From NCBI GenBank assembly GCA_937872175.1, contig CALMPI010000037.1, positions 1-64,000 on the forward strand: a DNA stretch of 64,000 bases. Reading direction: 5' to 3'. The notes under the pieces are model-generated. The model was given only the letters and a program-made list of their open reading frames with translations. It was not told the DNA's origin and made no database searches. Positions 49,693 through 55,800 of this stretch are shown here, piece after piece. Position 1 is the stretch's first letter; each line of letters opens with the position of its first letter. Position numbers and translations under genes: made by a program. Origin of the DNA: an uncultured Flavobacteriales bacterium (GTDB taxonomy: Bacteria; Bacteroidota; Bacteroidia; Flavobacteriales_F; PHOS-HE28).

Positions 49693-50505
49693 TCAGCGCA
49701 CCCTTCCTCCCGCAAGTTTTTTCGTGACCAAGGGCGGCCGCTCGTCCCGCAGGAACACCCACTTCGTCTCCGTGCTGTCCGCAGCGGAGAAGCGATAGCC
49801 ATCCCCGTCGTAGGCCTTGATGCGCTCGGCCTCCAGGATGCGGTGTTGCAGGATATACCGCGCCAGCGCACCGCGCTGGAACTTCACATACACCTGCAGG
49901 GACTTGTAGCCGCCCGGCGCCTCGTCCTTGAACTCGGGTGTGATCACACGGGCACCGAGCGTGCCGAGCCGCGCGGCCTTGCTGTACTCGGCGGAGGCCA
50001 GGTTCACGACCACACCGGAGCCGGAACGTTCCAGATCGGCCCTCAGGATCTCGGCGATGCGATCACCCCAATAGGCATACAGGTTCCTGGCCTTGCCGAC
50101 ACCGAAGGGTGTGCCCATCATCAGCCGGTAGTCCTGCATGAGGTCCAACGGCCGAAGCAGGCCGTAGAGCCCGCTGAGGATGCGCAGGTGGTGCTGCCCG
50201 AAGTCAAGGTCGGCTGCGGAGAGCGACCGTGCATCGAGGCCGCGGTACACCTCGCCGTTGAAGGTGAACACGGCAGGGCGGGCATTCTCCGGCGTGAAGG
50301 GCGTCGACCAGCGTTCGAACCGCTGGTGGTTCAGTTCGCCCAACGCGGGGCTCAGGTCCATGAGGTCGGCGAGCTTCTTCGCGCTCAGGGTCCGCAGCTT
50401 GTTCACCAACGGCAGGGCGTGCGCCAGCAGCACAGGTTCCGTGGCACCGGTCATGACCGGTGTTTCCCTGGCGAGGTCCTTGGCGGGCGAAAGCAGCACG
50501 AGCAT
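49693..50505 (-). CDS. yaaA: peroxide stress protein YaaA (DUF328)
   Basis: A 270-residue YaaA-type protein. The signature starts MLVLLSPAKDLARETP, and FNGEVYRGLDA, LRILSGLYGLLRPLDLMQDYRL and VVNLASAEYSKA match the family. In E. coli it lowers free iron during peroxide stress. A TACTTTG box (minus strand 50512-50518) is 6 nt before the ATG. It is convergent with the hydrolase and diverges from the sigma factor. Confidence 0.95.
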   Translation of the reverse strand: MLVLLSPAKDLARETPVMTGATEPVLLAHALPLVNKLRTLSAKKLADLMDLSPALGELNHQRFERWSTPFTPENARPAVFTFNGEVYRGLDARSLSAADLDFGQHHLRILSGLYGLLRPLDLMQDYRLMMGTPFGVGKARNLYAYWGDRIAEILRADLERSGSGVVVNLASAEYSKAARLGTLGARVITPEFKDEAPGGYKSLQVYVKFQRGALARYILQHRILEAERIKAYDGDGYRFSAADSTETKWVFLRDERPPLVTKKLAGGRVR

Positions 50506-50511
50506 GCTGGC

Positions 50512-50518
50512 CAAAGTA
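50512..50518 (-). promoter_or_regulatory. -7-like box TACTTTG for yaaA
   Basis: It is the same seven-base variant seen at 12343-12349, six bases before the ATG. Confidence 0.4.
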
Positions 50519-50631
50519 CGGCCCATGGCAGCGGTCGGCGAGGTCTCCTTGGCCGCCAGCGGGTCGGTTCCGAGGGTCGGTGTAACCTTTCGGCGGATCC
50601 GGCGACTATCTGTTCGGAGCCCCACAGGACC

Positions 50632-51177
50632 GTGAGCGACGCGAAGCAGACCGCCTTCATGCAGGCCTACAAGGACTGCCACGGTCCGTTTCTTCGGTAC
50701 TGTTCGGCCATCGCGTACGGGCGCATGGATGTGCAGGACCTGGTCCAGGACGTGTTGTTGTCCGCATACCAGCAGTTCGACCGTATCGAGCGGAAGGACC
50801 AGTTGCTGCACTACCTGGTACGGGCCGCACGGAACCGTGCCGCCAGCGCGTGGAAGCTGGGCCGGCGATCGGCCGTCCTGTGCGAACGGCAGGCGGCGCG
50901 CCTGCAGCAGCACGGTGCCACACCCGAGCAGCTGGTCGATGTGCAGTTGCTGTACAGGGCTTTGGACCAGCTGCCGGCGCAGCAGCGCGAGGCCCTGGTC
51001 CTGTTCGAGGTCTCCGGCCTCAGCATGGCCGAGATCGCGGTGATCCAGAACTGCGCGGAGGGTGCGGTCAAGACCCGCGTGAGCCGGGCCCGCGCCGCTC
51101 TGAGGGGCCGGTTGGACGGTCGTCCAAAACTCCCCGTGGCCGCAACCCTGCAATTGCTGATCCTCCTGCTCCCATGA
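50632..51177 (+). CDS. ECF-type RNA polymerase sigma factor
   Basis: A 181-residue sigma-70 family protein with region 2 (FLRYCSAIAYGRMDVQDLVQDVLLSAY, about residues 20-46) and region 4 (about 105-155), which has the recognition helix in ALVLFEVSGLSMAEIAVIQ and ends AVKTRVSRARAAL. The GTG at 50632 is in frame and has an ACAGGA-like site just before it; an ATG at 50659 is the alternative. The last codons overlap the next gene (ATGA), so sigma factor and membrane protein are made together, as is common for a sigma/anti-sigma pair. Target promoters are unknown. Confidence 0.92.
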   Translation: MSDAKQTAFMQAYKDCHGPFLRYCSAIAYGRMDVQDLVQDVLLSAYQQFDRIERKDQLLHYLVRAARNRAASAWKLGRRSAVLCERQAARLQQHGATPEQLVDVQLLYRALDQLPAQQREALVLFEVSGLSMAEIAVIQNCAEGAVKTRVSRARAALRGRLDGRPKLPVAATLQLLILLLP

Positions 51178-52364
51178 ACCCACGCGCCCACGACGGGATC
51201 GACCTGCACCTGCTGCGTGACCTTCCCGAGGAACTGAGCCTCGAGCAGGTGGAGCGGTTCATCATAACCCTGCCACCCACCCCACCGCCCGGCTCCGGGT
51301 CGGGGGGATCATTCTTCAACCTCAACTCCATCCTCATGAGCACTGCAGGCCTCCTCCTTGTCGGACTGAGCATTCATCTGTTCACCAGTGGCGGTGCGGC
51401 ATCCCCATCGCCGAGCGCTCCGGCGGACCTGGTCTCCCCCGCCACGGTGTTCGATGCCCCGGCGACCGTGCTGCCCACCGAGGCCAAGCCGCAGCAACAG
51501 CCTCGGCCCGCGCCGTCCGTGGCGCTTGCTTCGCCCATCCCGCCCACCGAGGCGGCTCCTGCTCCTGCCCCGGCCCCTGTTCCTCCGCCTGTTCCCGTTC
51601 CTGTTCCCGCCCCTGTGCAGAGTCCGATCCCAACGGACCCGGCGGTCGTCATCGCGGAGCCCATCAAGGAAGGAGATGCCCGCCGATACGACCTGAGCGG
51701 GTTCACGACGGTGCAGGTGCGCGGCAGCATGGACGTGGTGCTCGAGCAAGGTCCGTACGAAGTGGTGGCCGAGGGCGACGAGGATGTCCTGGACCGGCTG
51801 AGCATCCTGATGGAAGGGCAGGTCCTGCGCATCGCCAACGGCGGTAAGTCCAGCCGCAGCGGCACCTGCAATGCGACGGGGGCCCAGGTACGCGTGCGGA
51901 TGCCGCAGGTGTCGGCACTGGAGGTGTTCGGCTCAGGCGGGATCACGGCCGGAGCCATGACCGCCAATGGGCCGCTGCGCTTGCTGCTTCAGGGCTCGGG
52001 AAGCCTCGTGATGGGCTCCGCCCTGGGGGCCGCTTCACTGACGGTGGACCTGGCGGGCTCCGGCGATGTGCTGTGCGGCGCCATGGACGTGAGCGGCACT
52101 ACCGCGGTGAACCTGAGCGGAAGCGGCGATGTGGTCCTGGAAGGCCGCACGGCACGTCTGACGATCGACCTGGCCGGTTCCGGCGACGTGGACGCATCCG
52201 GTGTGGAAAGCGCGGCGACCGCGGCCACGCTGGTGGGGTCGGGCGATATTCGACTGGGCCGGACGGGACCATTGGAGCAACGCATCACCGGTTCCGGTCG
52301 GATCGAAGTGCACGGGAGCCCTGGCGGCCATGCGCCACAAGGGGAAGGTTCACGGTCCTACTAG
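51174..52364 (+). CDS. transmembrane DUF2807 protein, candidate anti-sigma/sensor
   Basis: A 396-residue protein: a short N-terminal part (1-48) with DLHLLRDLPEELSLEQVERF, one membrane helix (about 51-70, SILMSTAGLLLVGLSIHLF), a Pro-Ala/Pro-Val linker (about 75-155), then a DUF2807 (head GIN) beta-solenoid (about 165-390) with repeated GSGDV/GSGDI steps. DUF2807 domains are usually exported. The gene overlaps the sigma factor, so the N-terminal helix could bind the sigma factor while the solenoid senses the envelope. No classic anti-sigma zinc motif is seen, so the pairing is an inference from order and topology. Confidence 0.85.
   Translation: MNPRAHDGIDLHLLRDLPEELSLEQVERFIITLPPTPPPGSGSGGSFFNLNSILMSTAGLLLVGLSIHLFTSGGAASPSPSAPADLVSPATVFDAPATVLPTEAKPQQQPRPAPSVALASPIPPTEAAPAPAPAPVPPPVPVPVPAPVQSPIPTDPAVVIAEPIKEGDARRYDLSGFTTVQVRGSMDVVLEQGPYEVVAEGDEDVLDRLSILMEGQVLRIANGGKSSRSGTCNATGAQVRVRMPQVSALEVFGSGGITAGAMTANGPLRLLLQGSGSLVMGSALGAASLTVDLAGSGDVLCGAMDVSGTTAVNLSGSGDVVLEGRTARLTIDLAGSGDVDASGVESAATAATLVGSGDIRLGRTGPLEQRITGSGRIEVHGSPGGHAPQGEGSRSY
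51546..51620 (+). repeat. Pro-Ala/Pro-Val coding hexamer repeat
   Basis: CCTGCTCCTGCC-type hexamers encode the linker of the DUF2807 protein. They resemble the repeat at the left window edge (2-75). Confidence 0.7.
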
Positions 52365-52891
52365 GCCGCTGACCACGCGTCCACCGCCGGGCTCCCCACA
52401 CTTCCGGTCCGACCCCATCATCGCACGGGACCGAACGAAGGACCGTTCCGGGCACAACGACCGCGTTCGCAGGGCTGGCATGACCACCAGCGCCGAGGGT
52501 TCCCATTCCGCGACCCTTCCATACCATCCGGTCCGATGCCATGAGCGGAAGGTTCCGGTGCACGGCTGAAGCCGGTGCACCCGACCGCTCGTCCGACCCA
52601 CACCTCCCCTCGCCAACGCGCTGCAGGAGCGCGCCCGGCCTCACCTGCACGGTCCGTTCCGGTCGGCAGGGGTCGGGCGACGGGGCCGCCATGCGTCCCC
52701 CGGAATATTGGACCAGGTCCTTGCCTGGGGCGCTCGCACGGGTTCCGCACGAGCTCCCATCGCACCCATGTTCGTCGATGAAATCGCAGGTCCGGTCGAA
52801 CGGACGTATCCAACCGCGCCGGCCCGCGTACGACCGATCGAGCAGAAGTACATACGCGATGGGGGGATCACGACTCGGAAGCATGCTGGCG
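52365..52891. other. long spacer upstream of the adhesin gene
   Basis: A 527-bp gap. In-frame codons exist from 52541, but the conceptual product is Arg/Pro/Ser-rich and has no signal, so it does not look coding. No clear TAnnTTTG box, terminator or RNA element was recognised. A gap this long after a sigma-factor operon and before a giant adhesin may hold control sites that cannot be identified by eye. Confidence 0.5.
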
Positions 52892-55800
52892 ATGCGGTTC
52901 AGGACCGCGCTCGTGGCGACCACGCTGGCCGCATCCTGCCCGGTGGCCGCCACGCACATCAGCGGCGGCGAGATCTTCTACGAGTGCCTCGGGAACAACC
53001 AATATGAGGTCACGCTCATCATCTACCGCGACTGCTTCGGGGTGCAACTGGACAATGAGGTCGACCTCGTCTTCGACAGCCCCTGCGACAGCTTCACCGT
53101 CACTCTGGACACTCCCAACCCGGTTGAGCTCTCCCAGCTCTGCGACCTGGAACTTCCGAACAGCACCTGCAACGGCGGCACGCTGCCGGGCATCGAGCAG
53201 TACACCTACACCACGGTGGTGACGCTGCCGCCGTGCGACCACTGGACGATGGGTTGGATCGGCCGGAACCGCAACGCCGCAGTGGCCAATCTGGTGAACC
53301 CGGATGATGAGGCGATGTACATCGCCACCACCCTCGACAACACGGTCGATCCATGCGACAACAGCCCGGTGCTGACCAACATCGCAAGCCCTTACGTCTG
53401 CCTGAACTATCCGGTGACGTACAGCTACGGCGGCTATGATCCGGACGGCGACTCCCTCAGTTATGCCCTGGTGGATGCGCTGGACGAATTCGGTCAACCC
53501 ATCGCCTACGTGGCCCCCTACACCGGTGCGCAGCCCATCAGTGGCATCACGATCGACCCTGTCACCGGCCTGCTGAGCTTCACTCCGATGCTGGCCGGCA
53601 ACTGGGTGGTGGTGGTGGAAGTGAGCGAGTGGGACTCGCTGGGCAACCTGATCGGCACGGTGATGCGCGACATGCAGTTCATCGCCTACCCCTGCATGAA
53701 CGTTCCGCCCGACCCCGCCACGGGCGACATCAGCGGCTTCACCGGCGCGGCCGTACAGACCGGAGCCAACAGTGTGGAGGTCTGTGAGTCAGGTTCGTTC
53801 TGCATGTCCTTCGACATCGCCGACATCAACGCGGCGAACGTGTTGGAGGCCACCACCAACCTGCAGCAGAACCTCCCCGGAGCCACCTTCACCTACACGG
53901 GTGCCAACCCGATCACATGCACGGTCTGCTGGAACGGTCAGCCCGGCACCTCCGGTTTCTTTCCCTTCATCGTGCAAGTGAACGACGGCGCCTGCCCCAT
54001 CCCGGCCGTACAGACCTACGTGTACGCCATCACCGTACTGCCTGGCATGGCGATCACGGTGGATGTGCAGGATGAGAGCTGTGCGGGGGACCAGGACGGA
54101 CAGGTGGCCGTGAACGTCACCGCCGGCACCGGACCCTTCCAATACACATGGACCGGTCTGCCGGACACCACATCGACGATCCAGGTGGGCGCCGGTGTCT
54201 ACGCCGTGACGGTCACCGACGCCAACGGGTGCGTCTCCCAACCCACCTCGGCGGTGGTGAACGCACAGGGCCAGCCGAACCAGGCCGATGCGGGCCCCGA
54301 CCTATTGGGCTGCCTGGACGCGCTGCCGATCGCCCTGAGCGGCACAGTGACCAACGCGACCGGTGGCATCTGGAGCGGAGGTCAGGGCACCTTCAGCGGT
54401 GCGGGTCTCAGCGTCACCTATCAGCCCACGGCGGCCGAGCTGGCCTCCGGCGGGGTCGATCTTCTGCTCACCACCACGGGCAACCCCTTGTGTGCGGCCG
54501 ATGTGGACACAGTGCACGTGGTGCTGAGCGACGACCTGCTGAACGCCAGCGTGACGGGCTCGGACGCCTTGTGCAACGCCACGGCAACGGGCACCGCCAC
54601 CTTCCAACCGGTGCTATCGGGCATGAGCTTCATTTGGAACGCACCCGGGGCGCCCACGACATCACAGGTGAGCGGCCTTCCCGCGGGCACCTATGCGATC
54701 ACCGCGACCGACGCTGCCGGCTGCGACACGACACTGAGCATCACCATCGGCCAGCCGGACGCGCTCATCCTGGGCGCGCTGAGCGTGGTGGATGAACCGT
54801 GCGCCGGTCTTGGTGGAGGGAGCATCAGTGCCACCGTGAACGGTGGTACGGCCCCGTACACCTACGCGTGGAGCCAGGGGGCCACCACCCCGGCCGTGAA
54901 CGTGGGCGCCGGCACCTACACGGTCATCATCACCGATGCCAACGGCTGCGCTCCGGTGAGCGGGTCGGCCACGGTGAACGCCTCCGCACAACCCAACCAG
55001 GCCAACGCAGGCCCCGACCTCGTGGGCTGCCTGAACGAACTTCCGGTGACGCTCGCCGGGACGGTGACCAACGCCACGGGAGGCACATGGAGCGGCGGCT
55101 CAGGCACCTGGTTGAACAACGGCCTGACGGCCACCTACATGCCCAGCACATCCGAAGTGCAACAGGGCGGAGCGGCCTTGTACTTCACCACCACCGGCAA
55201 CCCGGGCTGCCCGCCCGATGTCGACACCGTCGTGGTGATCATCAGCAAGAGCTTCCTGAACGCGGGCATCCTCGGCACGGCCGCCAGCTGCCATGGCGGT
55301 GCCAATGGCACGGCCCTGTTCACACCGAATGACACCAGTTTCAGCTACCTGTGGAACGATCCAGGCGCACAGGCCGGCAACCCGGCCACCGGACTTGCCG
55401 CAGGCACCTATGCGGTCACGGTCACCGATGTGCTGGGCTGCGACACGACCTTGAGCGTCACGATCGCGGAGCCGCCACCGCTGCAAGCCACGCTGACCCA
55501 GAGCGGCGATCCGCTATGCGCCGGCGGGAACAATGGCTGGGCCACGGTGAGCGCATCCGGAGGGACCCCGGGATACACGTACCAGTGGGACGCCGCGGCC
55601 AACAACCAGATGGGCCCGACCGCCAATGGGCTGGGCGCAGGCACCTACGGGGTCACCGCCACCGATGCCAATGGATGCACCGTGCAGCTGAACGCCCAGC
55701 TCGGAGCTCCACCACCGATCCAATTGACCGCCCAGGCACCGGACACGGTGTGCGTGAACGTGCCCGTACCCCTTACCGCACAGGCGTTCGGAGGAACGGG

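Follow-up and report, generated by a model that had tools for sequence, protein, structure and literature searches.

An ECF sigma factor gene and its membrane partner

The window, i.e. the whole stretch of 64,000 nt analysed here, originates from an uncultured Flavobacteriales bacterium and harbors a gene for an ECF sigma factor of 181 amino acids at positions 50632-51177 of the forward strand. Its GTG start codon is backed by an alignment of congeners. The open reading frame contains sigma-70 regions 2 and 4, both above the Pfam cut-offs (PF04542 and PF08281), without region 3, the composition that defines ECF sigma factors. TIGR02937 of NCBIfam is likewise matched above its cut-off, and the score for TIGR02985 lies far below the threshold (71.6 vs. 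126.4 bits). A hydrophobic tail such as LQLLILLLP or LLETLQTITL is conserved at the C-terminal end of the close-family sigma factors (51133-51174 in the window). The mean hydropathy of this tail is +1.18 in the close family as compared to -0.96 in 26 unrelated ECF sigma factors, and it possibly contacts the membrane or the partner protein described below. A YaaA (peroxide stress) gene (49693-50526, reverse strand) is transcribed divergently from the sigma factor gene across a gap of about 105 bp, a layout also present in the nearest congener (locus L052).

The following gene (51174-52364, forward strand) encodes a putative membrane anti-sigma factor of 396 amino acids and overlaps the sigma factor gene by an ATGA, as noted in the original prediction. 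The protein begins with a segment of 49 residues (51174-51320), predicted to be cytoplasmic, which contains two short helices (LHLLRDLP-EELSLEQVERFI), is conserved across families and represents a candidate for an unnamed anti-sigma domain. According to AlphaFold and hydropathy, a single transmembrane (TM) helix follows (residues 50-72, 51321-51389) and starts at a conserved NLNSILM motif. It is succeeded by a disordered linker with 28 prolines and 19 alanines in 91 residues (73-163, 51390-51662; pLDDT mostly below 60) and by a DUF2807 (Toastrack) beta-solenoid (164-383, 51663-52322), the predicted extracytoplasmic sensor.

DUF2807 (PF10988; residues 177-383, E-value 2.7e-29) is the only Pfam match in the partner protein, and NCBIfam yielded none. 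Neither database returned a match in the N-terminus, the FecR, RsgI_N and class I anti-sigma domains included. The AlphaFold model, computed with 21 orthologues, shows helices at residues 12-15 and 23-31 ahead of the TM helix and a beta-solenoid at residues 164-380 with pLDDT values mostly above 90. In Foldseek, the solenoid matched the solved DUF2807 “putative adhesins” 3ljy, 3lyc, 3pet and 4opw, and the right-handed beta-solenoid fold together with the PF10988 match identifies the domain as a member of the Toastrack/DUF2807 group. Pfam, AlphaFold and Foldseek thus confirm the arrangement of N-terminal helices, one TM helix, Pro-Ala linker and DUF2807 solenoid that had been read from the sequence. 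The accompanying view that the protein is built like an anti-sigma factor but lacks any catalogued domain of that kind also holds, and the conserved part corresponds to the N-terminal helices.

The positive-inside bias in favor of a cytoplasmic N-terminus (N-in) is modest. Because of this bias, and because the N-terminus must meet the sigma factor, the DUF2807 domain is predicted to lie outside the cytoplasm. It had been described as surface-exposed, but a periplasmic location is the likelier one, since the partner has an N-in inner-membrane anchor and no T9SS sorting tail. The 91-residue Pro/Ala tether could bring the solenoid to the peptidoglycan or to the outer membrane.

Conservation of the gene pair

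Full-length relatives of the partner protein occur in about half of the 45 genomes sampled from the genus. Profile searches in these genomes detected the sigma factor in 26 and the N-terminal domain of the partner in 26, with both present in 25 congeners and neither in 18. In the two genomes that deviate, the locus is truncated by a contig end, and in one of these (G001) another contig ends with the sigma promoter. This co-occurrence is strong evidence for a conserved unit, yet the genomes are not independent, as related lineages share history. The ATGA overlap is kept in every congener with a readable junction and in 44 of 46 close pairs from Flavobacteriales, Roseivirga/Cyclobacteriaceae, Saprospiraceae and Chitinophagales; of 38 more distant pairs, 37 have a spacing between -14 and +40 nt.

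A scan of named genomes revealed sigma factors of approximately 47-61% identity in Roseivirga, Cyclobacteriaceae, Saprospiraceae, Lewinella, Neolewinella and Chitinophagales, and more distant homologues were found in 30 of the 177 genera sampled in the class, the genus of the window counted in. Wherever the gene 3′ of these homologues in the class was readable, it encoded a single-TM protein of the same layout. Under a strict layout test, a close downstream N-in single-TM protein followed 46 of 55 family sigma factor genes, compared to 3 of 306 other genes from the same loci, and hence the adjacency of sigma factor and TM partner exceeds chance. The recognisable core family is rare: a general profile of the N-terminus (A5) searched against 395 genomes of the phylum at E≤0.001 matched in the window genome only.

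A constant N-terminus with exchanged C-terminal domains

In all close pairs, the partner retains an N-terminus of about 35 residues with two helices, together with the TM helix, while its C-terminal domain varies. The cytoplasmic consensus reads roughly L..LF..AR..P.E.S.EQV..(I/V) and is followed by N-L-N-S-I at the membrane. In profile-profile comparisons with the TM helix removed, the genus scored 60 against the close families and 44 against the distant ones, and the close families scored 50 against the distant ones; column-shuffled alignments reached at most 14.6. The alignments thus indicate that the N-termini are homologous across the C-terminal types, even with the TM helix excluded. For the most distant partners, this N-terminus was recognised by profile-profile comparison only.

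The C-terminal types comprise DUF2807, DUF4097, FGE-sulfatase(-like) domains, Por_Secre_tail, an uncatalogued repeat and Pro-rich sequences, as well as several without Pfam match, and phmmer places them in separate clusters. Even two members of the window genus end in Pro-rich C-termini without DUF2807 (L229, equal to L176, and L230, equal to L167). Since other domains replace it, also within the genus, DUF2807 is not essential to the system. On a quick tree of the sigma factors, the label “Toastrack” changes 6 times, and at least 4 of these changes are forced by well-supported branches. The conserved combination of ECF sigma factor, TM helix and DUF2807 that the original prediction had proposed to survey therefore stands in its first part, the widely conserved ECF-TM pair; the DUF2807 domain is swapped for others. 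For a partner from Saprospiraceae whose C-terminus is unrelated, AlphaFold again modelled two short helices, the TM helix, a disordered stretch and folded domains. A fold search with this model, which is of modest quality, found nothing.

Further arrangements were observed among the relatives. Partners from Saprospiraceae and Roseivirga (L179:6546-7916 and relatives) carry an uncatalogued repeated C-terminal domain with the pattern LL..D.LI...VNG, for which neither Pfam nor the folds in the PDB provided a match. Despite its N-terminal membrane anchor, one partner (L145:3504-4928) terminates with the T9SS sorting domain Por_Secre_tail. Genome G267 shows the arrangement of the window in split form: the TM partner of its sigma factor carries a different C-terminus, and the gene immediately 5′ of the sigma factor gene (L083:2374-3159, reverse strand) codes for a separate DUF2807-like protein, in which a signal peptide was recognised by eye.

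In a Saprospiraceae locus (L188:424-2688), sigma factor, TM segment and outer domain are joined in one continuous reading frame of roughly 755 codons, which partly keeps the N-terminal motif and is preceded by the family promoter at position 217. As one case from a metagenome assembly, this fusion could reflect an indel.

A conserved promoter upstream of the sigma factor gene

A predicted self-promoter precedes the sigma factor gene on the forward strand (50582-50610). It consists of a -35 element GTAACCTTT (50582-50590), a spacer of 12 nt and a -10 element CGAC(TATC) (50603-50610). The motif GTAACCTTT-N12-CGAC was found with identical spacing upstream of the sigma factor gene in 23 of 24 loci of the genus and in most to nearly all close relatives from other families. 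It marks the close family only, since most of the remoter sigma homologues are without it. Within the genus, the motif occurs in 26 of the 45 genomes and is missing from all 18 that lack the pair; extra sites are few. In a set of 19 genomes accessed via the close family, 18 contain a match, usually a single one.

The search for further targets was carried out as pattern searches. Allowing up to 2 mismatches, the window genome contains 7 sites compared to 16 for reversed-pattern controls and thus shows no excess. Beyond the own promoter, GTAACC-N15-CGACT likewise showed no excess, with about 0.3 sites per genome in those with the sigma factor and 0.2 in those without. Accordingly, these searches made no regulon beyond the own operon visible in genomes of the genus and the close family; targets with much weaker sites may exist. 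In one locus (L034:12380-12404, corresponding to G039:C180:28379-28403), the sigma promoter recurs without mismatch a few kb 3′ of the pair. The conserved promoter upstream of the sigma factor gene, as essentially the sole such site per genome, strongly suggests that the operon is autoregulated.

The same observation could be read differently: if a genome offers no strong promoter site other than the one ahead of the sigma factor and its partner, the product that can chiefly be predicted is the partner itself, and the sigma factor might be the dedicated activator of one envelope protein whose N-terminus serves insertion, anchoring or oligomerisation. We regard such a pure effector as quite unlikely, because an anchor would not demand that unrelated C-termini share one N-terminus which tracks the sigma factor, and because direct contact between both proteins better accounts for the strict coupling and the L188 fusion. 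Effector and inhibitor roles of the partner could coexist.

The neighbouring adhesin genes

Downstream of the partner gene, Pfam confirms a protein with SprB repeats, PKD and CHU_C domains and a PorP/SprF protein, as stated originally. From this adjacency it had been suggested that a surface-exposed solenoid senses the state of the adhesin and that the sigma factor drives the SprB-like adhesin and PorP/SprF. Apart from their position in the window and the confirmed domains, the results speak against this coupling, which we regard as highly improbable. The likely start of the adhesin gene (52859-52892) lies about 500 bp past the partner gene, and no sigma promoter motif with up to 3 mismatches was found upstream of it. 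Where the flanking genes of other congeners were read, the pair had neither adhesin nor PorP next to it; closer reading of a single congener showed genes 3′ of the pair that, judged from sequence, resemble those for an acyl-CoA ligase, a SCO1/SenC-like protein and an ABC-F protein. With neither a sigma promoter nor a conserved linkage at the adhesin, and with no wider regulon visible, we take its position beside the pair in the window to be most likely coincidental.

A model for the sigma-partner operon

In our opinion, the locus probably represents an autoregulated operon of an ECF sigma factor and a membrane anti-sigma factor, in which an unnamed short anti-sigma domain is combined with an exchangeable periplasmic sensor. 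The conservation of the pair, the gene overlap, the conserved N-terminus with its exchanged sensors and the conserved promoter were computed directly. Such a switch most likely explains the coupling of the genes, the membrane anchor, the cytoplasmic domain tied to the sigma clade, the exchangeable outer domain and the self-promoter. Because sequence comparison links the N-terminal domain to none of the known anti-sigma families, we infer its function from this context; binding, inhibition, topology, signal and release mechanism are likewise deduced.

According to this model, the partner would reside in the inner membrane, where its first 35-49 residues or so, as an uncatalogued short anti-sigma domain, would hold the sigma factor inactive. 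The DUF2807 solenoid on its Pro/Ala tether would probe the periplasmic space or the periplasmic side of the outer membrane. A signal from the envelope would alter or remove the partner, either by conformational change or by regulated proteolysis, and the sigma factor freed in this way would transcribe its own operon from GTAACCTTT-N12-CGAC. As translational coupling would produce inhibitor and sigma factor together, the switch would be reset.

More tentatively, the family may constitute a distinct, uncatalogued type of ECF control in Bacteroidota. It would be characterised by an anti-sigma domain of about 35 residues with two helices, by freely exchanged periplasmic sensors (Toastrack, FGE-sulfatase-like and others) and by a closed circuit with the own operon as the only strong target, so that the membrane protein would be sensor and output at once.

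Comparison with known systems

A class I anti-sigma domain is encoded near only 6% of the ECF sigma factors in Bacteroidetes, and other classes have been suggested to dominate (PMC7406223). For the majority, which have no recognised class I inhibitor encoded in their vicinity, the mode of control was left open in that study. The sigma-partner family is a candidate for another anti-sigma class behind Bacteroidota ECF sigma factors without recognised inhibitor. It supplies a sequence-defined candidate domain, a reporter promoter and natural sensor swaps, which makes the question of control directly testable, and it suggests envelope sensing as a role for DUF2807, a common yet functionally obscure domain. 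In a literature search, no paper naming the sigma-partner family was found, and none that connects anti-sigma factors with DUF2807 or Toastrack; the large re-classification of ECF sigma factors (Casas-Pastor et al. 2021) lay outside its scope, and the sigma clade of the window may already have been assigned to a numbered ECF group.

With class I anti-sigma factors such as RseA, RsiW and the zinc anti-sigma factors, the partner shares the layout of a co-encoded membrane inhibitor with varied C-terminal sensor domains. In contrast to the approximately 100 residues of class I, its N-terminus comprises about 35-49 amino acids and has no Pfam anti-sigma match. An assignment to class I was rejected, as a recognisable domain of 60-100 amino acids is absent and the segment before the TM helix measures only about 49 residues. 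The N-terminus resembles the class II protein CnrY of Cupriavidus metallidurans in size and number of helices, and in both cases the short cytoplasmic part, predicted as such for the partner, leads into a TM helix and is co-encoded with an ECF sigma factor; as to binding, the likeness is putative. Domains of class II wrap sigma2 and sigma4. For the window family, two AlphaFold models show the two short helices before the TM helix, with low pLDDT. Unlike CnrY, the window family belongs to another phylum and carries other extracytoplasmic domains, and when the N-terminal profile was searched against the PDB sequences, no credible match to any chain emerged, CnrY included.

FecI/FecR systems, common in Bacteroidota, also pair an ECF sigma factor with a periplasmic single-TM partner. 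Identity with them was rejected: a FecR domain is missing, the sigma factor scores far below the TIGR02985 cut-off and no TonB transducer was recognised beside the pair. A FecR-like dual regulator that recruits and activates the sigma factor, and is needed for its activity, nevertheless has to be weighed. ECF activity needs N-terminal residues of FecR (PMC7406223), and the layout is compatible with tethering of the sigma factor to the membrane. Pfam found no FecR domain in the partner, and the annotated neighbours of the genus loci include no recognised TonB-dependent transducer, so we consider this role rather unlikely and prefer that of an inhibitor.

The anti-sigma factors of the RsgI type in Clostridia consist of a short inhibitor domain, a TM helix, a linker and exchangeable outer domains. 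The window family has this layout in common, but its partner gives no match to RsgI_N, and in a Gram-negative host the outer domain is probably periplasmic. Finally, the Toastrack (DUF2154/DUF4097/DUF2807) stress proteins of the Lia and PSP systems also link a membrane-attached Toastrack domain to transcriptional control. A survey of PSP systems predicts intracellular Toastrack domains (PMC11237479), whereas in the window family the Toastrack domain is predicted across the membrane from the sigma factor and would be an exception to that prediction.
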